Below are positions 13,014 through 25,471 of a stretch of DNA of 41,204 nucleotides, piece after piece. The DNA lies in contig JANYDS010000089.1 in NCBI GenBank assembly GCA_025363475.1, positions 1-41,204 of the forward strand, given 5' to 3'. Both the position numbers and the translations under genes were made by a program. Below the pieces are notes generated by a model. The model searched no databases. It had not been told where the DNA came from and saw only the letters and a program-made list of their open reading frames with translations. Positions within the stretch are counted from its first letter, which is position 1. Every line of letters starts with the position of its first letter. The stretch comes from Terriglobia bacterium (GTDB lineage Bacteria > Acidobacteriota > Terriglobia > Bryobacterales > Bryobacteraceae).

Positions 13014-14336
13014 CTATTCGAGCACCGCCTGATTCACCAGACTGTGTGACAGCGCATGAATCGCCCTTGTAGTCGGAATGCTCTGGTGCTGCACCATCCC
13101 CACAACAGCCAGATCGTGCACCGGATCAATCCAGAACCAGGTTCCCGCGATACCCCACCAGCTGAACGTTCCCGTCGGAACCGAATCACCTGCCGCTGCG
13201 GCATCCATCACGACCTGGAAATCCATGCCCCAACCCGTTCCCGCTGCCATGGTCTTCAACGGCTCCGGGTTGACGTGATTGGTCCGCATCATTTCCACTG
13301 TGCGAGGGGCAAGCAGGCGGGCGCCGTTGAACTGGCCGCCCTGCAGCAGCATTTCGCAGAACCGTGCGTAATCCATAGCAGTGGAGAAGAGTCCGCCACC
13401 ACCGGAGGCACCGAGCGGAATCACGGCGGGGTCGGGGCGATTCGGGTCAAACGACAGGCTGGCACCACTGCCGCGATGAACCTGCGCGAGGCGCGCGAGC
13501 TTCTCCCTGGGAACATAGAAGCCGGTGTCTTTCATGCCCAGGGGTTCAAAGATCCGCGTGCGGGCGAAGTCCGCAAAAGACTGTCCGGAAAACTTTTCAA
13601 TCAGGTAGCCCTGCACGTCAACCCCGATGCTGTACGACCAGCGTGTGCCGGGCTGAGCGAGGAGCGGCGTTTTTCCGAGCGCGTCAATCATCGCCTGAAG
13701 GGGCGCGTTCGGGTTAAGGAAATTGCCGTCGATGATCATTTTGTCGACCGGGTTGTTCGGGCTGAGGACGTAGCCGAGTCCGGCGGTATGCGTCATCAGT
13801 TCCCGCATGGTCATGGATCGGCGCGCGTCTTCCAGCTTCAGGCTGCCGTCGTCATTCTTGCCGACATAAACCTTGAGCTTCGAGAACTCGGGGATGTAAC
13901 GGGAGACAGGGTCATCAAGCTGCCACTTGCCTTCTTCATAAAGCATCATCATGGCTACACCGGTGACCGGCTTCGACATGGAGTAGATGCGGAAGATGGA
14001 ATCCTTCTGCATGGCGTCCGCCTTCCGGTTGTCGAGCTGGCCCACGGCGTTGAAGTGAACGACCTTGCCGTGACGTTCGACAAGGGTTACGAGTCCGGCA
14101 ACCTGCTTCTCATCCACCAGACGTTTCATGGCAGCGTCCAGGCGGCGCAGGCGTTCGGTGGACATTCCAACCGATTCGGCGGTCGCGGGAGCAAGATCGC
14201 GCACGCGCTTTTCTGCGGTTCTGGCGGCAACCGCGACGGCGGGATGGGGGCTCTGCGCCAGCGCTGTGAAAGTAAGTGTGGCTGCTGCTGCGAACGTGAA
14301 CATCGCACGCGCAAGAGGGCGGAATGAAAGTTTCAT
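13014..14336 (-). CDS. Exported serine hydrolase, class C beta-lactamase/esterase family
   Basis: The 440-residue protein starts with a signal peptide (MKLSFRPLARAMFTFAAAAT and on, to TALAQ). It has the serine-lysine motif SMSK at residues 119-122, the tyrosine motif region WSYSIGVDVQGYL near residue 235, and the family C-terminus AGTWFWIDPVHDLAVVGMVQ. These are the features of PF00144 proteins: penicillin-binding esterases, D-aminopeptidases and class C beta-lactamases. The family includes many non-resistance enzymes, so beta-lactam hydrolysis should not be assumed. It probably acts in the periplasm. Confidence 0.9.
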   Translation of the reverse strand: MKLSFRPLARAMFTFAAAATLTFTALAQSPHPAVAVAARTAEKRVRDLAPATAESVGMSTERLRRLDAAMKRLVDEKQVAGLVTLVERHGKVVHFNAVGQLDNRKADAMQKDSIFRIYSMSKPVTGVAMMMLYEEGKWQLDDPVSRYIPEFSKLKVYVGKNDDGSLKLEDARRSMTMRELMTHTAGLGYVLSPNNPVDKMIIDGNFLNPNAPLQAMIDALGKTPLLAQPGTRWSYSIGVDVQGYLIEKFSGQSFADFARTRIFEPLGMKDTGFYVPREKLARLAQVHRGSGASLSFDPNRPDPAVIPLGASGGGGLFSTAMDYARFCEMLLQGGQFNGARLLAPRTVEMMRTNHVNPEPLKTMAAGTGWGMDFQVVMDAAAAGDSVPTGTFSWWGIAGTWFWIDPVHDLAVVGMVQHQSIPTTRAIHALSHSLVNQAVLE

Positions 14337-14433: not shown

Positions 14434-15003
14434 TCAACCGCGCGTGATCTCGCGCTGAAGCCAGGCTTTGGCCAGCTTCCAGTCGCGCAGGATGCTTTGC
14501 GGGGAGAGTTTCAGCACGGCTGCAGTCTCTTCTACGCTGAGGCCGCCGAAGAAGCGCAGTTCGATGACTTTGGCTTTGCGGGGATCGATTTCCGCGAGGG
14601 TATGGAGCGCATCGTCAAGAGCGACCAGCTCGCGGTCCTTTGAAATGCCGACTTCTCCAACGTCGTCGAGGTTGAGATTGAAGGCCTCGCCGCCGCGCTT
14701 ATCGGCGCACCGGGAACGTGCGGCATCGGTCAGGATGCGGCGCATCATCTGCGCGGAAACGGCAAAGAAATGGGCGCGGTCCTGCCAGTTGACGCCGGTG
14801 ATGTCGACGAGCCGCAGCCAGGCTTCATTGACGAGGGCCGTGGGTTGGAGGGTGTGGCCATCACGTTCCCCGCGCATGTAGCGGCGGGCCATGCGGCGCA
14901 GCTCAGTGGAAATGAGTGGAGTAAGACGGTTGAGGGCCGCAGGGTCGCCCGCTCCCCAGGCTTTGAGCAGGCCCGTAATTTCCGCAGGTCCGGCGGTTTC
15001 CAT
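14434..15003 (-). CDS. ECF sigma factor, TIGR02999-like
   Basis: The start is ATG 15001-15003 (METAGPAEITGLLKAWGAGD), where the family's conserved sequence begins. The 189-residue protein has region 2 with LISTELRRMARRYMRGERDG and the family signature HTLQPTALVNEAWLRL. Region 4 follows (KVIELRFFGGLSVEETAAVL, then LSPQSILRDWKLAKAWL). Sigma factors of this type are expanded in Acidobacteria and Planctomycetes, where some are linked to Ser/Thr kinases. It is the last gene of the kinase/CHAT/DUF4384 block, 78 bases after the DUF4384-like gene, and is a candidate for its transcriptional output. No anti-sigma factor is evident. Confidence 0.9.
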   Translation of the reverse strand: METAGPAEITGLLKAWGAGDPAALNRLTPLISTELRRMARRYMRGERDGHTLQPTALVNEAWLRLVDITGVNWQDRAHFFAVSAQMMRRILTDAARSRCADKRGGEAFNLNLDDVGEVGISKDRELVALDDALHTLAEIDPRKAKVIELRFFGGLSVEETAAVLKLSPQSILRDWKLAKAWLQREITRG

Positions 15004-15081
15004 TTGACATGGAATTATATCCCGGCTGAGGAAAGAAAACACGCTCCCGCGGACACCCCCGCAGACACAACCGCGCGGGGG

Positions 15082-15969
15082 TCACTTGTAGCGCAGACGC
15101 ACGGTAACCAGCATGGGGTCCCCCGGACCGGTTTGGACACGATAGACGGTCTGCGGCGCGGGGTCATCCTGCGTCAGAGAACGTGTGGAATCCGCAGCAG
15201 CGCGCTGCTCCACTGCCGTCCAGGTCTTCCCGGCTCCGCCAGAGAGTTCGAAGGTTTCCGCTTTGGCCTCCCATTGCTTCTTCCAGCCATTCACCTGTTC
15301 CGGCGACAGCGTCAGCGCGGAAGGCCCGACTTCAACCCCTTCGAGGGGCTTCGGGGTCAACAGCACGGTGATTTCTTCTTCTGCCTGATCGGTGCGGGTC
15401 TTGCGCATGGTGAAGAAGTTGGGGCGGTCGTCCTGGCCTGGAATGTCGATGATTTTGCCGGCGGAGACACGGTTGTCGCCGCCGCGTGTGCGTGCGGTGG
15501 GGAAGATCAGATACGGGGTGCCGCGCTCCCCGCTGGCATAAAGTTCACGGTCAATCACATACAGGTAGCCCTTTTCGGGGGACTCAAACGTGAGGCGCAG
15601 TTTGTCGCCCGGCTGCAGACTGGTGGTGGATGAAACGCGTTCCGGCACCAGGGTAGTGGTTCCCGCTTCTTCCTGCACCAGGATGCGCGCACCGGTATCC
15701 TGCGTCGTGGCGGAGCGGAGGCGCCAGATGGTAACTCCGAGCTGCCTGGCTCCCAGGCGTGCCACAGGGGCAGCCGCTGTCTGCGGGACATACTTCGGGG
15801 CTGTGGCCTGGGTCGTCGCTTTCGGTTGAGGACGTGCCTGGAGAACCGCTTCGGGCACGATGCCGCGGCTTCCGGACTGCGCCGCCAGTGGTGCTGCGAA
15901 ACATCCGGCCAATACCAGAACGACTTGGGAGCGGGTCAATTTGAAGCAGGTTACTTTGAAGCAAGTCAT
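15082..15969 (-). CDS. Exported DUF4384-like protein
   Basis: The start is ATG 15967-15969 (MTCFKVTCFKLTRSQVVLVL), with AAAGGAG six bases upstream and a signal peptide ending about AAPLAAQ. A longer in-frame start at 16080 is rejected because it would overlap the CHAT gene and loses this ribosome site. The region at about residues 130-250 (PGDKLRLTFESPEKGYLYVI, then YLIFPT) resembles DUF4384, the domain also found at the C-terminus of the kinase at 23735-25471. The protein ends VTVRLRYK. It probably resides in the periplasm and may present a ligand- or partner-binding face. It follows CHAT gene 1 at a distance of 74 bases. Confidence 0.8.
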   Translation of the reverse strand: MTCFKVTCFKLTRSQVVLVLAGCFAAPLAAQSGSRGIVPEAVLQARPQPKATTQATAPKYVPQTAAAPVARLGARQLGVTIWRLRSATTQDTGARILVQEEAGTTTLVPERVSSTTSLQPGDKLRLTFESPEKGYLYVIDRELYASGERGTPYLIFPTARTRGGDNRVSAGKIIDIPGQDDRPNFFTMRKTRTDQAEEEITVLLTPKPLEGVEVGPSALTLSPEQVNGWKKQWEAKAETFELSGGAGKTWTAVEQRAAADSTRSLTQDDPAPQTVYRVQTGPGDPMLVTVRLRYK

Positions 15970-15988
15970 GGAAACTCCTTTCATTGTC

Positions 15989-17560
15989 TCTACTTGTTCA
16001 AGCGCAGGAAGGAAGCCGGAACTACAAGCGGGCCGGGCAAATATTAGCGCCAGTCGCCTTGTTGAACGAACGCGGCCCAATAGTAAGGTGATTCCCAGCG
16101 CTTCTGCTTTCTCAGTTCCAGTTGTGCCTCACGTAAAGCCGCAGAAGGTCGTTTGCCGTGGCGCAACAGTTTTTCGTAAAAAGTTGCCATGAGTTCCGCG
16201 GTGGCGCGGTCATTCACATTCCACAGACTGACAATTACTTCGGGTACACCGGCGTAGAGAAACGCGCGGGTCAGCCCCATTACCCCTTCACCGCGCACTT
16301 CTTTGCCGAGCCCTGTCTGGCACGCGCTCAGAACCACCAGGTCCGCTGACAGCTTCGCGTTGTAAATATCGTCCACGCGCAGGAAACCGTCTTCCGGCTG
16401 GTTGTGACTGTCGATTTGTGACAGCACCAGAGCCGAGAGTTCGGGGCGTTCGGTGTCGAGGTATCCATGAGTCGCGAAGTGCAGGTATTTGAATTCGCTG
16501 AGGCGGCCGCCGATCGCCATCGCGCGGCTGGCATCGAAGCCAATGGCCTTCAAATTCGACGAATGGGGCGCAATTCTGAGAATTCTATCCGCTTCCTGCG
16601 CGGTATAGGGAAGGCGTGGAATATGCAGGGCGGTGGCAGCGCTGTTCTTTTCGCCGGCGAGGTGTTCCAGTACGCGGGATGTGTCCGGTCTCACCGCAGC
16701 CATCGTAACCGCACCAGCACGCGGATCAGAACCGTCGAACACCGGGTCAGCAAACACTGCGAGCGATTTCGGTGGCGGCGTGCGTCCGGTGACCTGCGTG
16801 CGGAGCGCGGCGAGAGCCGAAGCTGAAGGCGCGATCACCACCTCATGCCGAACCAGCAAAGGATCGCGGGTTCCTGGTTCCGTAAGCATGGCGAAAGGAA
16901 TACTTTGCAGCGCACCATCAGGCACAATCAGCAGTCGTTTGTTACCCAACGCGGGACCCGCATCACCCAACACCATTCGGCCTAACTCAGCCGCAGCCAC
17001 ATCGAGGGTGCGTGCCGGCGCGCGCGTCGCCATCAGTTGCGCTACGGCCAGCGCCTTCGCTTCGATCTTAGCCCGCGCGGCGAGGACGAACGAACGCAGG
17101 CCATCCTTGCCCACCACCCACAGGTAACTGCGCTCATCGCCCAGCGAGTATTCCAGCAGCAGCGTATCTGCATCCAGCAGGTTCTGCTGAATCTGCGGAA
17201 CCGTCAGAACACCAGGCTGAGATACCGCCGCGTATCTCGGACTGCTCTTGCGGATGGCCGCCTGGACATCCTGATATTCCGCTTCGAGGTCGCGGATTTC
17301 CTGTCTGAATTCAGCCGCACGTTTATCTGCCGCGTTGAGTGCCAGCAGCCGTGAACCCTTGGCGTTCAACCGGTCAGAAATGCTGCGTTCGCGTTCAAGC
17401 AACCCGGCATCAACGCCCTCACGAATAGCGGTACCCGAAGCCGCCATCATTTCGAGAAGACTGCGCGCCCTTGATCGCTCGCTCGTCTCCAGCGCGAGGG
17501 CGTCAGCGCTTCCGGAGCGCATCAGCAGATCGATGTAGAAGGTGTAGGCGTCCTGATGTG
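15989..17560 (-). repeat. Copy 1 of a duplicated catalytic-half segment
   Basis: This segment covers the C-terminal half of CHAT gene 1, about residues 523-1028, and continues about 55 bases past its stop codon, to TCTACTTGTTCAAGCGCAG at 15989-16007. The same 19-base string closes copy 2 (19834-19852). Within the segment the two copies match almost throughout, whereas the upstream halves of the genes are clearly diverged. The left end is a sharp boundary outside the coding region; the right end is approximate. Confidence 0.8.
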
Positions 17561-19130
17561 TGGCGGAAAATGAAGCGCGGAGCTGCTGGCTGTCTACGGT
17601 GAGGCGATCCTTCTCACTGACGCTTATCGCGGCTTCAATGCGCTGACGCGCTTCGCCGGCGTTGCCGCGATTGTCCTCAGTACGGGCCAGGGCCTCAAGT
17701 GCGAGAGCTTCGAGTCTGTGGTTGCCCAGCGCGCGCGATTCCAAGGCCGCCTGCCTCGCGTAATCAGCAGCCGCATTCGAATCTCCGGCAAGGACACCTG
17801 CCGCCGCGAGGTGGAACAGGTCAAAAGCGACAGCGGTGCGATCTCCGACTTCGCGGGCGATACGGAGCGACTCCGCAAGGGCCTGGCGAGCGTCAGTGAA
17901 GCGTTTCAAAGCCGCGAAAGCACGCCCCTGCGCGGCCAGCGCTTCCGCCACCCCGCGGCGGTCCGCAAGCTGCCTTCGCAATACGAGCGCCTCGTCCGCA
18001 TGCTCCAGCGCTGCCTGACTGTTTCCCTCCCTGAGAAGCAGAGCGGCCATCGCTGTGAGCGTGGCGGCAATACCGGGCCTGTCGCCGAGTTCTCTTCGAA
18101 TGAGCAGGGCCTGCGTATACAACCGCTCTTCTTCCGCAGGGTCGCCCAATTGCCCGTATGCGACTCCCATGTTCTGGAGTACCAGACTTTCTCTGCCCCG
18201 TTCGCCAGCGACGCGGAATAATGGGAGGGCCTGGCGGTAGCCGTCCAAAGCCTGTTGCCAATGCGAAAGCTGGAACTCTGTGACAGCGGAATTATTCAGG
18301 GTCAAGCCTTCGTGGAGGCGGAATCCGCCTGCGCGGTCAAGCGCGGCCGCCTGTTGGTAGAGTTTCAGTGCTTCATCGGGTTCTCCCAGCACTGAATAGA
18401 CCCCCCCGGCGGCGTTCCATGCCTCAGCCTCGTCGCGTGGATCGGGGATTGTCCGAAAGGCTGCGGCGGCCTTGTCGTACCAGGGAAGCGCGGCCTTGTA
18501 GTCTCCCGCCTGCATGGAGACGACCCCGAGGTCTTTCGCAGACAGCCCTTCCATGTATCGGTCACCCAGGCGGCTGAAAGAGCTAAGAGCCAGTTCGAAC
18601 TGCGCTTTCGCACGGGTCAATCCGGCAGAGGTCCGGGTGACCATCAGCCCCACTCCCTCGCTGTAATATCTGTAGGCAGCGACAATTTCCGGATCGCCCG
18701 GCCTGGAATCACGGAAGTCGAGGACCTTCACGACGAAGGCGTCACTGCCGGACCGGCCGGGGCGCGTTACCTCAATTGTGTAGTCGCCCGAAATTTCCGC
18801 GATGGCGGCTATGGTTTCCGGGCCGTCGCCGCCATTGTCGAAATCGGATTGAGCGATGAGTTCGGAGCGAGGACCACGAAGAACTACGGCGAGGTCGCTG
18901 CCGGACTGCAAGACCTCGATTCGAAAGAATTGTCCGGCTGTCACTTGGAAGTGCAGGACATCCGGCGCGGATCCGGTCAGGCGGCGCTCCAGGCGCTCAC
19001 CTGGCCGCAGGAACGTGCCGGAGGCTATCTGGGCAAGCAGGGGGACGGGCGACCCGGCACACGAGATCACGCCCGCGACAGCGAGAGAAGCCATCGCGCG
19101 ACGGGACCGGTGCCGGATCGTTGTTCCCAT
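16044..19130 (-). CDS. Exported TPR-CHAT caspase-like protease (copy 1)
   Basis: The 1028-residue protein starts with a signal peptide (to about residue 34, ending in PLLAQ). A PPC-like beta domain (about 38-135; FRIEVLQSGSDLAVVLRG) precedes tandem TPRs from about 145 to 500 (for example EAWNAAGGVYSVLGEPDEAL). A coiled linker follows, then the CHAT domain. The likely catalytic dyad is the second histidine of YLHFATHG (near residue 887) and the cysteine of VLSACQTGLG (near 937). CHAT domains are caspase-related peptidases. The signal peptide places this one outside the cytoplasm, unlike Csx29. It is 11 bases downstream of the beta-rich gene at 19142 and 74 bases upstream of the DUF4384-like gene. 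It shares an almost identical catalytic half with copy 2. Confidence 0.92.
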   Translation of the reverse strand: MGTTIRHRSRRAMASLAVAGVISCAGSPVPLLAQIASGTFLRPGERLERRLTGSAPDVLHFQVTAGQFFRIEVLQSGSDLAVVLRGPRSELIAQSDFDNGGDGPETIAAIAEISGDYTIEVTRPGRSGSDAFVVKVLDFRDSRPGDPEIVAAYRYYSEGVGLMVTRTSAGLTRAKAQFELALSSFSRLGDRYMEGLSAKDLGVVSMQAGDYKAALPWYDKAAAAFRTIPDPRDEAEAWNAAGGVYSVLGEPDEALKLYQQAAALDRAGGFRLHEGLTLNNSAVTEFQLSHWQQALDGYRQALPLFRVAGERGRESLVLQNMGVAYGQLGDPAEEERLYTQALLIRRELGDRPGIAATLTAMAALLLREGNSQAALEHADEALVLRRQLADRRGVAEALAAQGRAFAALKRFTDARQALAESLRIAREVGDRTAVAFDLFHLAAAGVLAGDSNAAADYARQAALESRALGNHRLEALALEALARTEDNRGNAGEARQRIEAAISVSEKDRLTVDSQQLRASFSATHQDAYTFYIDLLMRSGSADALALETSERSRARSLLEMMAASGTAIREGVDAGLLERERSISDRLNAKGSRLLALNAADKRAAEFRQEIRDLEAEYQDVQAAIRKSSPRYAAVSQPGVLTVPQIQQNLLDADTLLLEYSLGDERSYLWVVGKDGLRSFVLAARAKIEAKALAVAQLMATRAPARTLDVAAAELGRMVLGDAGPALGNKRLLIVPDGALQSIPFAMLTEPGTRDPLLVRHEVVIAPSASALAALRTQVTGRTPPPKSLAVFADPVFDGSDPRAGAVTMAAVRPDTSRVLEHLAGEKNSAATALHIPRLPYTAQEADRILRIAPHSSNLKAIGFDASRAMAIGGRLSEFKYLHFATHGYLDTERPELSALVLSQIDSHNQPEDGFLRVDDIYNAKLSADLVVLSACQTGLGKEVRGEGVMGLTRAFLYAGVPEVIVSLWNVNDRATAELMATFYEKLLRHGKRPSAALREAQLELRKQKRWESPYYWAAFVQQGDWR

Positions 19131-19141
19131 GTGGTTTGAGG

Positions 19142-19738
19142 TCAGGAATCGGCGGGATCGGAATCCGGCGTGGCCTCTGCAGCCCAGTCCATATTAGTGG
19201 CTGTGGGCTGCAGGGATGCAACCAGGGTTCCCGTCCCCTTCTGATTGTTGACGAAAGTCCCCTGGATATTTGAGTAGGGCCAGGGCGCGGGGCCCGTGAT
19301 GTTGCCGTTGGCATCGAGAGAGTAGCTGGCGGATTCACCGCTGGAAAGTACGAAGGTGGCAACATCTCCGTCGGAGTCGATTGTCGCTACTCCTTTGGCC
19401 ACCCAACTCCCGCCGATCTGGACCCTGAACGGCAAACCATTGGGCGGCCCCGGACTCACGCTGACGCGGGCAGTCCAGTGCACAGAGCTGCCATTGAGGT
19501 AGATTGTGCCGTTTCCGGTAACCTGACCTGCAAATGTGCCGGTAAGCGGGTTGCTGCCCGTGATAGAGAGTACGCCCGTGCTGGTGTTGATGGTTCCGGT
19601 ATAGGTGGCGGGAGTGAAACCAGTGAGCGTAACGGTGACTGCAACCGCGGGACCAGTGCCCGTTCCGGAAATCAGAATTGTGCCTTTAGCTCCGCCAGCT
19701 TTGATGTGCAGGGGGCCGATGTTCAAAGTAACCGACAT
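19142..19738 (-). CDS. Beta-rich protein without signal peptide, upstream of CHAT copy 1
   Basis: The 198-residue product has no signal peptide. It is rich in Gly, Thr, Ser and Val in alternating patterns (GTGPAVAVTVTLTGFTPATY, ATFVLSSGESASYSLDANG), indicating an all-beta protein, perhaps two repeated sandwich units. Its start has GAGGA seven bases upstream. It lies 11 bases before CHAT copy 1 and 27 bases after the kinase relic. The second beta-rich gene (23015-23707) stands in exactly the same position relative to the kinase, and shares patterns such as TYTGT-I/L and V-x-WTA-x-L/V. It could be a substrate or regulator of the protease. No named family recognised. Confidence 0.8.
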   Translation of the reverse strand: MSVTLNIGPLHIKAGGAKGTILISGTGTGPAVAVTVTLTGFTPATYTGTINTSTGVLSITGSNPLTGTFAGQVTGNGTIYLNGSSVHWTARVSVSPGPPNGLPFRVQIGGSWVAKGVATIDSDGDVATFVLSSGESASYSLDANGNITGPAPWPYSNIQGTFVNNQKGTGTLVASLQPTATNMDWAAEATPDSDPADS

Positions 19739-19765
19739 GAATTTTGTCCTCGTCGCTGATCGAAT

Positions 19766-19834
19766 TTATTGATGCCGAAGCTGAATCACTTCGCCCAGCA
19801 GGGGCTCGGCCGCCCGTAGTTGAACGCCTTGCTT
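19766..19834 (-). pseudogene. Relic of a DUF4384/kinase C-terminus
   Basis: Read leftwards, this stretch encodes GVQLRAAEPLLGEVIQLRHQ followed by TAA (19766-19768). The intact kinase ends GVQLQAAEPVLGEMISLRHK, so 15 of 20 residues match. It is bounded upstream by a stop and by the downstream repeat of CHAT copy 2, and no start codon or longer frame exists. The distance from its stop to the next start codon (27 bases) equals that of the real kinase. It is best explained as what is left of a second kinase or DUF4384 gene after deletion. Confidence 0.8.
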
Positions 19835-21405
19835 CTACTTGTTCAAGCGCAGCAGGGAAGCCGGAACTATAAACTGCCCATAAAAATATTACCGCCAGTC
19901 GCCCTGTTGAACAAACGCGGCCCAATAGTACGGCGATTCCCAGCGCTTCTGCTTCCGCAGGTTCAGTTGTGCCTCACGCAAGGCGGCAGAGGGTCGTTTG
20001 CCGTGGCGGAGTAGTTTTTCGTAAAAAGTTGCCATGAGTTCTGCCGTGGCGCGGTCATTCACATTCCACAGACTGACGATTACCTCTGGCACGCCGGCGT
20101 AGAGAAACGCGCGGGTCAGCCCCATCAGCCCTTCACCGCGGACCTCTTTGCCGAGCCCTGTCTGACACGCACTCAGCACCACCAGATCTGCTGACAGCCT
20201 GGCGTTGTAGATATCGTCCACGCGCAGAAAACCGTCTTCCGGCTGATTGTGACTGTCGATTTGTGACAGTACCAGTGCCGAGAGTTCGGGGCGTTCGGTG
20301 TCGAGATAGCCATGCGTGGCAAAGTGCAGGTATTTGAATTCGTTGAGGCGGCCGCCGATCGCCATCGCGCGGCTGGCATCGAAACCGACGGCCTTCAAGT
20401 TCGACGCATCGGGCACAATTCTGAGAATTCTATCCGCTTCCTGTGCTGTATAGGGGAGGCGTGGAATATGCAGGACGTTGGCAGCGCTGTTCTTTTCGCC
20501 GACGAGGTGTTCCAGTACGCGGGATGTATCCGGCCTCACCGCCGCCAGCGTAACCGCACCGGCACGCGGATCAGACCCGTCGAACACCGGGTCAGCAAAC
20601 ACTGCGAGCGATTTCGGTGGTGGCGTGCGGCCTGTGACCTGCGTGCGCAGTGCGGCCAGTGCAGAGGCCGAAGGAGCTATGACCACTTCATGGCGAACCA
20701 GCAACGGGTCACGGGTTCCTGGTTCCGGAAGCATGGCGAAAGGAATACTTTGCAGCCCACCATCAGGCACAATCAGCAGTCGTTTGTTACCCAACGCTGG
20801 ACCCGCATCACCCAGCACGACTCGGCTTAACTCAGCCGCAGCCGCATCGAGAGTGCGTTCCGGCGCGTGCGCAGCCACCAGTTGCGCTAACGCCATGGCC
20901 TTCGCCTCGATGGTTGCCCGCCCTTCGAGGCGGAACGATTTGAGGCCCTCCTTGCCAACCACCCACAGGTAACTGCGTTCCTCGCCCAGCGAGTATTCCA
21001 GCAGCAGTGTATCTGCATCCAGCAGGTTCTGCTGAATCTGCGCAACCGTTAAAATTCCAGGCTGAGATACCGCCGCGTATCGAGGGCTGCTCTTGCGGAT
21101 GGCTGTCTGGACATCCTGATACTCCGCTTCGAGGTCACGGATTTCCTGCCTCAATTCAGCTGCGCGCTGATCAGCGGCGTTGAGTGCCAGCAGCCGTGAA
21201 CCCTTGGCGTTTAACCGGTCTGAAATGCTGCGTTCGCGTTCAAGCAGCCCGGTATCAACGCCTTCACGAATCGCGGTACCCGAAGCAGCCATCATTTCGA
21301 GAAGGCTGCGGGCGCGCGAGCGTTCGCTCGTTTCCAGTGCGAGAGCGTCGAGTCCGCCGGCACGCATCAGCAAGTCGATATAGAAGCTATAGCCGTCCTG
21401 GCGGG
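19834..21405 (-). repeat. Copy 2 of a duplicated catalytic-half segment
   Basis: This is the partner of 15989-17560. It spans the C-terminal half of CHAT gene 2, about residues 522-1027, plus about 55 bases after its stop codon. The left edge meets the kinase relic directly. The close match, including third codon positions and the non-coding tail, implies recent duplication or gene conversion. Confidence 0.8.
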
Positions 21406-22972
21406 CGGCAAAAAATGTTGCGCGGTGTTGCTGGCTGTCTGTGCCCCGTCGGCTGCCTTCAACCATAGTCAGAGACTGCTCCATATATCCCAGAGCGCCA
21501 GTGACCCGGCCCTGATCCGCTTCGGCCCGTGCGCTGGCTTCGAGCGCAACCGACTCCAACAAATGGTTGCCGATGGCGCGAAATTCGGCCACGGCCAGTT
21601 GGCCGTACTGAAAAGCCCGCGCCGGGTCGTTTGCCGCGAGAAACGTAACGGCGAGAAAGGTCCATGCCTGTCCGGTGCGGCGCCGGTCGCCGACCGAGCG
21701 GGCCATGTCAGCGGCCTGAAGCAGGCATTCAACGGCCTCTTCAAGCCGTTGCAGACGTTGAAGTGCCTGGCCCTTCAGGATCAACACCTGAGCTTCGCTC
21801 CCGCGGCTGCCCTGGACTTTCCTCAATGCCTGCGCTTGCTCCAGATAAGGCAAGGCGCGAGCAAAATCGGCGCGCTGAATGTACGCGCTGGCCATGCCCT
21901 CCAGCGTCGCGGCCTCACCCGGTTTGTCTGCCAGTGCCCGACGTGCCGCCAGTGCACTCTCGAACAAACGGAGGGCCTCATCTGTATCCCCCAACTGGGT
22001 ATACATGATTCCCATGTTGTTCACGACAAGGTTCTCGCGGGTCCGGTCGCCTGCATCCCGCAACAGGGGAAGAGCCTGGCGGTACCTGTCCAGAGCGCGC
22101 TGCCACTGTGACAACTGAGCCTCTACGGTGGCCAAATTATTAAGAGCCAGCGGAATCTTCGTCCGGTCGCCTTCGGCCGAGAACAGAGCAATGGCTTCCT
22201 CGTAAAGCTTCATAGCCGCCGGTGCCTCACCGAGAACGTCACGAACGCCGCCCTCGCTGTTCAGTGCTTCGGCTTCCATGTGGCGATCATGCTGAAGCTG
22301 AAACAATTCCCTTGCAGCCAGATACGAGGAAGCCGCACCGCGAAAATCACCCGCGCGGCCAAGAGCAGCACCCAGACCATATGTCGCAAGCCCCTCCATG
22401 TATTGATCCCGGGACCGGCGAAAGAAATCCCGGCTCAGTGTCAGCTGGTCGATGGAACGGCGCACCGCCTCTGCACTCCGGGCGTTGACCCCTGAATTGT
22501 AGTTGCGGAACGCTGCCACGGTCTCGCGGTCAGAGTCCGATGCATGGCGCATTTCGGCCACGGCGATGGTGTAGTTTTCGGGTGGCCCGGCCGGACTGGC
22601 GCGGCCGACGCTAAGGCGGTAGATACCGGGTACCTCAGTAAGCACAACCAGGATTACCGGCCCGTACTTTCCATTGCCGAAATCAGCCGATGCCACGGAC
22701 TTGCCCGATGGGTCATGCAGCTCAAGATTCAGGTCAGTTCCAGCCTTTAAGACTTCGAGGCGGAGGAATTGCCCGGCTGTCAGAGAGACGCTCGTAACGG
22801 CCGGGCCGCCCGGGCGAATCACCCCTGTCATTACCGCACCGCGATACGGGACCAGGTCATCTGTCGCTGACTGGGCGGGAAGCTCAGGCACGAGGGCAAG
22901 CAGACACAGCAATGCAGAGGCCGCGCGGCCCGTTGCCGTCACCTGTTTTCTCCCGCGTTGCAGTACCACCAA
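19889..22972 (-). CDS. Exported TPR-CHAT caspase-like protease (copy 2)
   Basis: The 1027-residue protein starts at TTG (22970-22972) or the adjacent GTG, just after a G-rich site. It has a signal peptide ending about ELPAQ. A PPC-like domain (FLRLEVLKAGTDLNLELHDP), TPRs (about 150-500), a linker and a CHAT domain follow. The last carries YLHFATHG and VLSACQTGLG, the histidine and cysteine of the presumed dyad. The order and length match copy 1. The N-terminal sensor halves are only moderately similar, while the catalytic halves differ at few positions. The gene follows the beta-rich gene at 23015 by 42 bases. Confidence 0.92.
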   Translation of the reverse strand: MVVLQRGRKQVTATGRAASALLCLLALVPELPAQSATDDLVPYRGAVMTGVIRPGGPAVTSVSLTAGQFLRLEVLKAGTDLNLELHDPSGKSVASADFGNGKYGPVILVVLTEVPGIYRLSVGRASPAGPPENYTIAVAEMRHASDSDRETVAAFRNYNSGVNARSAEAVRRSIDQLTLSRDFFRRSRDQYMEGLATYGLGAALGRAGDFRGAASSYLAARELFQLQHDRHMEAEALNSEGGVRDVLGEAPAAMKLYEEAIALFSAEGDRTKIPLALNNLATVEAQLSQWQRALDRYRQALPLLRDAGDRTRENLVVNNMGIMYTQLGDTDEALRLFESALAARRALADKPGEAATLEGMASAYIQRADFARALPYLEQAQALRKVQGSRGSEAQVLILKGQALQRLQRLEEAVECLLQAADMARSVGDRRRTGQAWTFLAVTFLAANDPARAFQYGQLAVAEFRAIGNHLLESVALEASARAEADQGRVTGALGYMEQSLTMVEGSRRGTDSQQHRATFFAARQDGYSFYIDLLMRAGGLDALALETSERSRARSLLEMMAASGTAIREGVDTGLLERERSISDRLNAKGSRLLALNAADQRAAELRQEIRDLEAEYQDVQTAIRKSSPRYAAVSQPGILTVAQIQQNLLDADTLLLEYSLGEERSYLWVVGKEGLKSFRLEGRATIEAKAMALAQLVAAHAPERTLDAAAAELSRVVLGDAGPALGNKRLLIVPDGGLQSIPFAMLPEPGTRDPLLVRHEVVIAPSASALAALRTQVTGRTPPPKSLAVFADPVFDGSDPRAGAVTLAAVRPDTSRVLEHLVGEKNSAANVLHIPRLPYTAQEADRILRIVPDASNLKAVGFDASRAMAIGGRLNEFKYLHFATHGYLDTERPELSALVLSQIDSHNQPEDGFLRVDDIYNARLSADLVVLSACQTGLGKEVRGEGLMGLTRAFLYAGVPEVIVSLWNVNDRATAELMATFYEKLLRHGKRPSAALREAQLNLRKQKRWESPYYWAAFVQQGDWR

Positions 22973-23014
22973 AGCCCCCCGCTTACTTCCTCAACTCATG
23001 CCACATGAGACGGA

Positions 23015-23707
23015 TTATCGGGCACCAAGTTCGGAAGCCCAGCTGTCCTCGGATCTTCTGTGGTCAGTGGCCACATAGCTCAACCCACCGTTACCCGAGG
23101 CACCCGCAGTCCAGGCAGGGCGACCTGCAACGGTGGCACGTGCGGTGATGGAGCCCCAAATGCCGGTGTAGGTCCTGGCTCCTACGGTGAAGCTGACCGC
23201 GAGCGGTGCCGCCGGGGTTGCCGGAACCGCGCCGTTCATGATCGCGCCGCCGGGACCGAGCGGCACCTCGATTCTGCTCTGGTCAGAATAGTGCAGAATT
23301 CCTGTCCGGCGGTTTTCAGAAATCCTGATACGACCGGGTTGACCACCGAGTCTCGCTTTACCGTGTCTTTTCAAGTCAGCGGTCCAGGTGACGTCAGTTC
23401 CTCCGGAGCCGGCCGTAATACTGGAGTGATCTGAACTGAGGGTTCCGGTGTACGTCCGGGGAGGATATCCGGGCGCGGTCAGGGTAGCGGTAAAAACTCC
23501 GTTCGCGTCCACAGAGCAAGACCCGGATTCTGTCTGATTGTTTACCCTCGGGTCTTCGCTGGGGAAACTGGTGATAGTGGCTGTCAGGAGCGGACCCAAC
23601 GCTATGGGTGTAATTTCCAGAAACTTATCGTAGACCAGAACCTGGTCTCCCATGGTGTATGTGACGTGCATAATGAGCCGAACCGGCTGTGTGATCAAAT
23701 TCGGCAT
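23015..23707 (-). CDS. Beta-rich protein without signal peptide, between kinase and CHAT copy 2
   Basis: The 230-residue product lacks a signal peptide and a membrane helix. It has beta-type alternation (LLTATITSFPSEDPRVNNQT, TADLKRHGKARLG, VSFTVGARTYTGIWGSIT). AAAGGAAAA lies upstream of the ATG. It begins 27 bases after the kinase stop codon, the same spacing as between the relic and the 198-residue protein. I regard the two as distant paralogues from position and faint pattern similarity; full alignment was not possible. Its role is unknown; substrate or adaptor of the protease are the ideas to test. Confidence 0.78.
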   Translation of the reverse strand: MPNLITQPVRLIMHVTYTMGDQVLVYDKFLEITPIALGPLLTATITSFPSEDPRVNNQTESGSCSVDANGVFTATLTAPGYPPRTYTGTLSSDHSSITAGSGGTDVTWTADLKRHGKARLGGQPGRIRISENRRTGILHYSDQSRIEVPLGPGGAIMNGAVPATPAAPLAVSFTVGARTYTGIWGSITARATVAGRPAWTAGASGNGGLSYVATDHRRSEDSWASELGAR

Positions 23708-23734
23708 CAGGCGTTTTCCTTTGTTGTTGTCAGT

Positions 23735-25471
23735 CTACTTGTGCCGAAGCGAAATCATTTCGCCCAGAACAGGCTCGGCCGCCTGTAACTGAACGCCGTG
23801 GCCGGCGGGCGATTTCACCGCACGTCCCAGTCCGCCAAGAAATTGTGCTGTCCGCAGGGCTTTTGCGGGGTCTTTCACTTCTCCCGTATCGCTAAAGGCC
23901 ATAGCGTCCTGCAGAGACTTCACCGGTCCTTTGGAGTAGGCAATCCAAAGCCGCTCGGTTCCCGGATTCGCATCGAAGTCATACCAGCCGGTTTCGAGCG
24001 GTTGATGCGCGGTAAGTGCCGCTGAACCGGAAACCGCAGGATACAGAATCCAAAAGCGGCGGGTACCATTTGGCCCTGGTCCTTCATTGATCAGATACAG
24101 AAACCCGGTCTGGCCAGATTCAATCCGCAGGCGGAATTTGTCGCCGAAATGAAAAGTTTCGCCCGTGGAGGCCACAGACACGGGGCCGCCTTGTTTGCGG
24201 GCTTCCAGAGTGTAAGTCAGCGAGTTCATCGGAACAGCAGCCTGTCTGACGCTGTACCAGGCGCCACCCCCAGCCAGCGCGGCAATGACAGCGAAACCTG
24301 CGAAGGCCGCCGACCGTTTTGACCCGCTCACCGGAACCGCCGGCGTTGCGGCCTCAGACGTCACAGAGGTCAGCGCAGCCCGCACTTCCGCCATAGACTG
24401 AGGGCGCGCCGCCGGGTCTTTACTGAGGCAGCGGTCAATCAGCGCGGCAACCGGGGGCGCAATTGCCGGCGCTTTTTTCGACGGGGGCCGGGGCGCTTCC
24501 CGGGCTATGTTATTCAACGTCGCCAGAACATCGGTACCGCGAAAAGGATGCGTCCGGTAGGCCGCTTCGTAGAGAATGATGCCAAAGGAAAAAATATCGG
24601 AACGGTGGTCCGAGGGCGCCGTTAACGCCTGTTCGGGCGACGTATAAGCCGGGGTGCCCATCAGGCCGCCGCCGATCGTCAGCCCGGTCATCTCGCTGTC
24701 CGCGCCTGCTGCCGCCTGTTTGGCGAGGCCGAAATCCAGCACTTTCACGATACCGTCAGTGGTCACCATGATGTTGGTGGGCTTGAGATCGCGGTGAACG
24801 ATGCCGGCTTCATGAGCCCGCGCCAGCGCTCCGGCAACCTGAGCGACGTACCCGATCAGGGCCTGCGATGACTTAGTGCTGTCGGCAATCAGGCGGTCAA
24901 GTGTAACGCCCTGAATGTATTCCATGGCTATGAAATCCACGCCGCTGTCCGAGTCATATTCATAGATGGTGACGATGTTGGGATGATTGAGCGCCGAGGC
25001 CGCTTTGGCTTCACGGAAAAAGCGGCGCTTTTCAAGGCCGGTCCCGTCAAAACGGGTAATCAGTTTGAGCGCAACAGGGCGGTCCAGACGTGTGTCAACG
25101 GCCTTGTAAACAGCCCCCATACCGCCTTCGCCCAGCTTTTCCAGAATCCGGTACTGGCCAATGATCTGGTCCGGCGACGGATGGCCGGACGCCGATGCGG
25201 AAGGAGAAGCATCAGACTCTGGGGCTAAAGCCGGCCCGTCAAGCAGGCCGGTGCGTTCGTAGGCATTGATCAGGGAATCGATCTCGCTGCGCAGGGCCAG
25301 ATCGGTGCCACAGACTTCATCCAGCCATGCGGGACGCCGGTCTGCCGGGATGGGCAGTGCCGCGTCAAAGATTGCGCCCACCCGCTCCCAGTTTTCGGAG
25401 TCGGGATGGGGCGTGGTGGCCGGGTCACCGGGCGCGGTTTTCTTTTCCTCGTCCATGATCGAATTGACCAT
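23735..25471 (-). CDS. Ser/Thr protein kinase with membrane helix and DUF4384-like sensor
   Basis: The start is ATG 25469-25471, with AGAAGG five bases upstream, giving 578 residues. An N-terminal helical segment (about 25-75, WERVGAIFDAALPIPADRRP, seen in acidobacterial kinases) precedes the kinase domain. Its glycine loop GEGGMG is at 114-119, the lysine of VALKL at 136, HRDLKPTN from 226 and DFG at 246-248. All catalytic residues are present. One membrane helix (about 387-406) leads to an outside C-terminal DUF4384-like domain that ends LRHK. It is thus a PknB-type receptor kinase, the first gene of the CHAT block, and would sense an exported signal and phosphorylate cytoplasmic targets. 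Confidence 0.93.
   Translation of the reverse strand: MVNSIMDEEKKTAPGDPATTPHPDSENWERVGAIFDAALPIPADRRPAWLDEVCGTDLALRSEIDSLINAYERTGLLDGPALAPESDASPSASASGHPSPDQIIGQYRILEKLGEGGMGAVYKAVDTRLDRPVALKLITRFDGTGLEKRRFFREAKAASALNHPNIVTIYEYDSDSGVDFIAMEYIQGVTLDRLIADSTKSSQALIGYVAQVAGALARAHEAGIVHRDLKPTNIMVTTDGIVKVLDFGLAKQAAAGADSEMTGLTIGGGLMGTPAYTSPEQALTAPSDHRSDIFSFGIILYEAAYRTHPFRGTDVLATLNNIAREAPRPPSKKAPAIAPPVAALIDRCLSKDPAARPQSMAEVRAALTSVTSEAATPAVPVSGSKRSAAFAGFAVIAALAGGGAWYSVRQAAVPMNSLTYTLEARKQGGPVSVASTGETFHFGDKFRLRIESGQTGFLYLINEGPGPNGTRRFWILYPAVSGSAALTAHQPLETGWYDFDANPGTERLWIAYSKGPVKSLQDAMAFSDTGEVKDPAKALRTAQFLGGLGRAVKSPAGHGVQLQAAEPVLGEMISLRHK

Follow-up and report, generated by a model that had tools for sequence, protein, structure and literature searches.

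Extracytoplasmic function (ECF) sigma factors have been described both in company with kinases and in company with caspase-like CHAT proteases. Kinase-linked ECFs in print are those of group ECF43 (EcfK/PknS, EcfP/PknT) (PMC8999054, PMC13147305), whose consensus at sigma2.2 is QTTA and whose threonine there is phosphorylated by the neighbouring kinase (PMC13147305, PMC8999054). CHAT-linked ECFs in print are ECF54 and CASP-sigma, the latter found with a tetratricopeptide-repeat (TPR) CHAT protease (PMC8999054, PMC10028731): this TPR-CHAT protease, Csx29, cuts Csx30, C-terminal residues of Csx30 are required, and uncut Csx30 inhibits the ECF sigma factor (PMC10028731). Here, we analyse a locus made of components of these known kinds (ECF43-like kinase-sigma pairs, CHAT-linked ECFs, and TPR-CHAT with an ECF as in CASP) on contig JANYDS010000089.1 of a Terriglobia bacterium (Acidobacteriota, Bryobacteraceae; assembly GCA_025363475.1). 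The whole contig, 41,204 bases of a 4.16 Mb genome, is called the window below. Its minus strand encodes at 14434-25471, in transcription order, a Ser/Thr kinase, a small β-rich protein (β1), TPR-CHAT1, a relic of kinase sequence, a second small protein (β2), TPR-CHAT2, a DUF4384 protein (D), and an ECF sigma factor (Table 1). These genes represent an operon conserved in Acidobacteriota, within which the two window proteases are mosaics that share a nearly constant catalytic half and differ deeply in the other.

The locus resembles ECF43 in that the ECF is encoded with a Ser/Thr kinase and a threonine replaces the acidic sigma2.2 motif (PMC13147305, PMC8999054), a likeness seen in the kinase neighbour and in the sigma2.2 motif. 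It differs in its gene company, which is a TPR-CHAT protease operon and not the type VI secretion or polymyxin resistance genes of the ECF43 accounts, and in its kinase, which bears a DUF4384-like tail. With ECF54, whose context is CHAT, subtilase or carboxypeptidase, it shares an ECF gene near a CHAT gene, whereas no kinase or DUF4384 is named for ECF54 in the accessible part of that article (PMC8999054). Separately, four loci from the same genus (L038, L039, L040, and L048; L numbers denote loci throughout) carry a TPR-CHAT gene followed by an ECF-like gene of ~175-197 amino acids (aa), often with an anti-sigma-like protein of ~250-266 aa (some of these by eye), an arrangement that is probably the ECF54-type CHAT association and distinct from the kinase type. 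Craspase/CASP likewise combines a TPR-CHAT protease, a partner recognised via its C-terminal part, and an ECF sigma factor (PMC10028731), but the kinase and the DUF4384 proteins, and the signal-like N-terminus of the CHAT, set our locus apart. No Cas match was found among 18 window open reading frames (ORFs) scanned with Pfam, no dedicated CRISPR search having been made, and Csx29 was not among the 34 PDB sequences that matched TPR-CHAT2 in a phmmer sequence search (E ≤ 0.01), all of which were TPR or designed proteins. Myxococcus metacaspase-sigma operons and EACC2-caspase systems with an ECF similarly join a caspase-like protease to a sigma factor (PMC3501461, PMC8195603), but with other protease families and partners, and the accessible parts of these accounts describe no kinase, DUF4384 or small-partner architecture of the present kind (PMC3501461, PMC8195603). 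Among the articles listed, a single one, on cyanobacterial orthocaspases, names both DUF4384 and CHAT (PMC8283722). A preliminary description of the window, made from its sequence, had suggested that the genes form a system not known to have been described; this stands for the ensemble that includes DUF4384 proteins and a variable partner with a tag, of which we found no description among the matches listed in the open-licence literature, but not for its parts, kinase-linked and CHAT-linked ECFs being in print already. An annotated defence system was considered and rejected: PADLOC gave TPR models for the CHATs and kinase-domain models for the kinase (PD-T4-6, mad6, PglW, and others among the best 25 of 36), and matched no other protein of the window module.

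D is the best marker of the system. It is the sole DUF4384 match in its genome, passes the PF14326 cut-off (34 bits vs 27), is 56-62% identical to eight aligned relatives, and has no solved relative at E ≤ 0.1. It is present in 26 of 237 genomes of the family (E ≤ 1e-10) and in 18 of 396 genomes drawn from the phylum (E ≤ 1e-20; 20 of the 34 phylum matches were taken further), and two D patterns, searched for across 84,980 species, occurred at 39 loci, every one of them from Acidobacteriota, Bryobacterales and Blastocatellia included. After removal of duplicates and of D matches below 90 bits, 86 stretches yielded 66 distinct D loci. A CHAT gene lies directly upstream of D in 23 of these (L188, whose CHAT is 876 bases from D, is left out), and among the 16 CHAT-D units with at least 5.7 kb of upstream DNA, a kinase occurs in 15 and an ECF in 14. 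The kinase accompanies the ECF in all 14 and adjoins it in 13; in the window the two are 8.7 kb apart, at opposite ends of one gene run. The ECF precedes the kinase in 12 of the 14 and follows D only in the window and L195, the full order ECF-kinase-slot-CHAT-D (the slot being the place of the small β-rich protein) occurring in L037, L083, L084, L085, L089, L122, L125, and L139. Kinase, slot, CHAT, D, and ECF thus form a conserved operon of Acidobacteriota. The neighbourhood proposed in the preliminary description does recur in related genomes; as to its ancestral three-gene unit, the repetition and the relic are real, but the ancestral unit was larger, ECF-kinase-slot-CHAT-D. Among the remaining 43 D loci a kinase is directly upstream in 20, and in three of these (L189, L190, and L191) an ECF-CHAT pair lies divergently opposite. 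Multiple CHAT genes are also found in L178 (one inverted), L185, L188, L118, L142, and L189. In L188 (11790-12631), a pair resembling an antitoxin and a PIN-domain toxin, judged by eye, sits between the second tandem CHAT and D.

The two CHAT copies of the window are 92% identical in their protease halves (aa) and 38% in their PPC/TPR halves, the PPC match of TPR-CHAT1 being weak (Pfam, E 0.008). Over 1,024 aligned codons the best single breakpoint falls at 21304 in TPR-CHAT1 and 17459 in TPR-CHAT2 (chi2 188; the highest value among 500 shuffles was 15.2), with third-position identity rising from 0.35 before it to 0.78 after. Against the single CHAT of L083, from another genome, the PPC/TPR halves are 38 and 40% identical, like the 38% between the copies, and the protease halves 65%, against 92% between the copies. 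In an alignment of 29 hand-chosen CHATs, all of which have the catalytic His and Cys, the N-half is generally less conserved than the C-half (N = 0.66*C - 0.04, fitted to 323 other pairs), and of all 324 pairs that of the window deviates furthest, with a z of -4.3 that depends on a linear fit extrapolated to high identity; three partial or atypical proteins and one pair with a short overlap are left out of these statistics. In trees of 17 sequences, 1.63 substitutions per site separate the window N-halves, whose sister grouping is weakly supported (0.70), and 0.10 separate the C-halves, which group with full support. A plain recent tandem duplication of all three genes is ruled out by this mosaic identity, the N-halves being saturated while the C-halves are 92% identical; because β and the CHAT N-half are as diverged as between species, the window does not hold the plainly duplicated three-gene block that the preliminary description implied. 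β1 and β2 gave chance-level matches only by BLASTN, and a two-sequence BLASTP comparison gave two short matches, one of 18 residues at E 0.006 and the other of 14 at E 0.04, a similarity that is too weak for calling them either homologous or unrelated.

The boundaries of the copies preserve the trace of a rearrangement. The relic corresponds to the last 20 codons of the kinase: 49 of its 59 bases are identical to kinase positions 23800-23742, and 15 of 20 residues match the kinase C-terminus, as the preliminary description had noted together with the gap of 27 bases from stop to next start, which is the same in both copies. A chance match is ruled out, since the best 59-base match in 30 shuffles of intergenic sequence reached 29. 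At the 3' side, 45 of the 56 bases after the TPR-CHAT1 stop are identical to those after the TPR-CHAT2 stop, a match that breaks off ~4 bases short of the D start codon, at the point where the first copy passes into the kinase tail. Copy 1 therefore reads CHAT, pre-D DNA / kinase tail, β2, the junction that would be expected either from tandem duplication of a segment starting in the kinase tail and ending just before D or from a deletion between two tandem operons. An assembly artefact by collapse of identical copies is unlikely, as the protease halves differ at ~10% of bases. Both blocks next to the diverged segment appear recent, since base identity is 83% in the relic and 80% in the 3' flank, close to the 90% of the C-half. 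The β+TPR segment that they enclose looks old. The cassette may have been replaced, a diverged allele may have been added in tandem, or conversion may have homogenised the flanks only.

The remaining gene assignments of the preliminary description, i.e., one strand and one gene order, two CHAT proteases, a stand-alone DUF4384-like protein, and an ECF sigma factor, agree with the ORFs and Pfam matches (Table 1). Its DUF4384-like kinase end finds support in a BLAST match between the L084 D protein and residues 393-507 of the kinase (E 3e-6) but not in the Pfam DUF4384 model, which does not match the kinase tail; on the BLAST similarity the tail and D are homologous. Between the kinase domain and the tail lies a hydrophobic segment (residues 406-424 of the longer ORF) with a hydrophobicity of 1.54 over 19 residues, the values at the same place in nine kinases being 1.19-2.85; it is taken as a putative membrane segment, which is weak in the window, clear in some relatives, and not clear-cut in all kinases. 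Export of the CHATs, likewise proposed before, would fit their hydrophobic, signal-like N-termini, with hydrophobicity of 1.55-3.19 in the 26 scored and segments often followed by A-Q. The N-terminal hydrophobicity of D proteins is at least 1.28 in eight of nine (0.54 in L084), and that of slot proteins 0.30-2.05 (n = 16), overlapping the CHAT range, so that slot N-termini look unlike signal peptides by eye only.

The window ECF has Q-P-T-A at sigma2.2 instead of an acidic D-x-x-D. Among readable ECFs near D, Q-x-T-A occurs in 14 of 16, L037 and L090 being without it; this count excludes L178 and L187, which are unreadable there, and L177. QPTA is also present in five of six Sig-70_X6 genes or fragments examined in this genome: the window's own, two that have a kinase beside them (L197 and L201), and two for which none was recognised (L199 and L202). 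The motif is a family trait, not a diagnostic one, and is therefore compatible with a kinase-activation model without being proof of it. The ECF has no solved relative at E ≤ 0.001.

Between kinase and CHAT there is usually a slot gene of 95 to 479 codons, whose products are mostly β-rich by eye. In each of the six operon pairs compared, conservation is lowest in the slot (e.g., for L084/L085, slot 0.41, CHAT N-half 0.60, kinase 0.67, and ECF and D 0.75 each). β1 has a match in one of 149 other genomes of the family, a weak one (E 8e-4) within a larger kinase protein, and neither β1 nor β2 matched a family in Pfam, NCBIfam or PADLOC. Despite this variability, 12 of 16 β-type slot proteins carry W-x-A among their final 45 residues, compared with 41 of 643 other ORFs, and 9 of the 16 carry the strict form [DSGTN]W-x-A[SGAE], compared with 0 of 643. 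The 16 come from 18 slot proteins after two C70-like ones were set aside, and the background comprises every ORF of 90-600 aa selected at L037, L083-L146, and L177-L196, spurious ORFs included. The tag in these proteins suggests a shared recognition partner; its parallel with the Csx30 C-terminus may serve as a lead, not as a test. In fold prediction, β2 alone gave a poor model (predicted local distance difference test score, pLDDT, 43), while for six related slot units (L110, L114, and L115) the best of five models is all-β (pLDDT 70, predicted template modelling score 0.61), the other four having a pLDDT of 51-55. This model has no convincing counterpart in PDB, where it gave 600 matches at E ≤ 10 but not one at E ≤ 0.001; weak structure matches to lipocalin and PvdP were not used, and the slot units compared with solved sequences gave one chance-level match (E 0.57).

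Several slot variants were also seen. Papain-like Peptidase_C70 proteins (E ~1e-5) lie between kinase and CHAT in L177 (7198-8247) and L178 (7721-9148). L178 further encodes two small proteins with diverged bodies and a common tail ...VFQVDPEMDVMAE. The slot proteins at L110:5500-6939 and L115:4803-7011 consist of repeated ~240-aa units, each ending (D/E)WEAS.RG, and with up to three units in one operon they are a second kind of growth in slot copy number.

Our preferred explanation, held tentatively and at somewhat less than even confidence, is that a kinase-activated ECF drives a TPR-CHAT protease together with its variable partner or substrate, and that in this window two slot+TPR cassettes are under one switch. 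An outside signal would act on the DUF4384-like tail of the kinase, which would phosphorylate the ECF at the threonine of the sigma2.2 Q-x-T-A and thereby supply the missing negative charge; the phosphorylated ECF would then transcribe the operon. The slot protein would be the partner of the TPR-CHAT protease or the substrate that it cleaves; the conserved protease half would recognise the W-x-A tag of the slot protein, and the variable PPC/TPR half would recognise its variable body. Duplication or unequal recombination would have led to two tandem slot+TPR cassettes, each joined to a near-identical protease half, such that one kinase and sigma factor could control two specificities. A more general form, unlikely as we judge it, would be a modular non-CRISPR system in which kinase-activated sigma factors drive TPR-CHATs whose variable sensing half pairs with a W-x-A-tagged hypervariable partner, with slot+TPR cassettes exchanged and stacked in tandem on a protease half that stays constant, in the manner of self/non-self or conflict systems.

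Several observations weigh against this explanation. The chief weakness of the substrate model is a possible split between compartments: if the CHAT is exported and the slot protein is not, the two may not meet. W-x-A is lacking in L139, L178a, and L178b, and L088 has W-S-S; it had been noticed in some of the counted proteins beforehand, at least four of which are related. No slot gene is evident in L185 and L187; within the stretch examined, L088 and L196 are without an ECF and L196 is without a kinase; and the QPTA ECFs of L199 and L202 have no recognised kinase in their 1.5 kb flanks. A common promoter motif was looked for upstream of the ECF genes and none was found above shuffles. Within the window, a terminator-like hairpin (15065-15046, minus strand) lies between D and the ECF gene, though not above chance, since shuffled versions of the region contain more such sites; the ECF may be transcribed separately here.

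The alternative that survives best, possible though we lean against it, is that the slot protein is not a substrate: CHAT, D, and the kinase tail would form an envelope-stress or defence protease branch outside the inner membrane, and the slots would be effectors or adaptors of their own in the cytoplasm, merely encoded by the shared operon as the papain-like C70 proteins of L177 and L178 are. The signal-like N-termini of CHATs and most D proteins, with none evident by eye on slot proteins (scores overlap), are consistent with this view, as are the C70-like peptidases that occupy the slot in L177 and L178 and the slot-less L185 and L187; yet in the window the slot has diverged along with the CHAT N-half, and a C-terminal tag common to 12 of 16 slot proteins suggests a shared recognition partner. 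Fast drift and gene conversion alone, with CHAT N-half and slot unconstrained, conversion keeping the protease halves alike, and no specificity cassette, would fit the generally lower conservation of the N-half, and conversion over a 1.5 kb tract would yield a sharp breakpoint, but we consider it improbable given flanking blocks that look as recent as the C-half and a tag kept by the slots despite their hypervariability. Least probable of all, the slot could regulate the sigma factor as Csx30 does CASP-sigma, with CHAT cleavage relieving it in a non-CRISPR counterpart of Csx29-Csx30-CASP-sigma, a view encouraged by the same trio of TPR-CHAT, small partner, and ECF and by the recognition of Csx30 via its C-terminal part (PMC10028731), but disfavoured by a well-conserved ECF beside a hypervariable slot, a CHAT with a signal-like N-terminus, an activation route already offered by the kinase, and a PDB search with TPR-CHAT2 that gave TPR and designed TPR-like proteins, not Csx29.

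Table 1. Features of the kinase, TPR-CHAT, and ECF locus, with window positions.
Feature	Position	Strand	Remarks
Hanks-type Ser/Thr kinase, D-like tail	23735..25471	-	ATG 25471, ORF from 25528; Pfam Pkinase E 6e-49
β1, small β-rich slot protein	23015..23707	-	W-x-A near C-terminus; no evident signal peptide (by eye)
TPR-CHAT protease copy 1	19889..22972	-	PF12770 E 6e-71; catalytic His and Cys present
Layout of TPR-CHAT1			N-half PPC-like and TPR, with signal-like N-terminus; CHAT half downstream of ~21304
56-base stretch 3' of TPR-CHAT1 stop	19833..19888	-	Homologous to DNA from TPR-CHAT2 stop to D start codon
Relic of kinase 3' end, duplication or deletion junction	19773..19831	-	BLASTN E 3e-13
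β2, small β-rich slot protein	19142..19738	-	C-terminal end ..MDWAAEATPDSDPADS
TPR-CHAT protease copy 2	16044..19130	-	PF12770 E 1e-70; His888/Cys937; CHAT half downstream of ~17459
D, DUF4384 protein, signal-like N-terminus	15082..15984	-	ATG 15984; PF14326 E 3e-8
ECF sigma factor (Sig-70_X6)	14434..15042	-	PF07638 E 3e-54; TIGR02999 216 bits, cut-off 126

Beyond the locus, a β-lactamase family gene (PF00144; window 13014-14336, minus strand) lies ~100 bases downstream of the ECF gene, and its product has a signal-like N-terminus by eye.

To our knowledge, natural substrates are known for few CHAT proteases. Most of the proteases in this family of operons come with a neighbour that resembles a partner or substrate and frequently carries a C-terminal tag, and the present genome offers a naturally occurring exchange of sensing halves on a catalytic half that is nearly constant, with what looks like a kinase-sigma switch in control. 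TPR-CHAT recognition becomes directly testable outside CRISPR, and with this system caspase-like proteolysis would join the outputs of ECF sigma factors that are linked to kinases.

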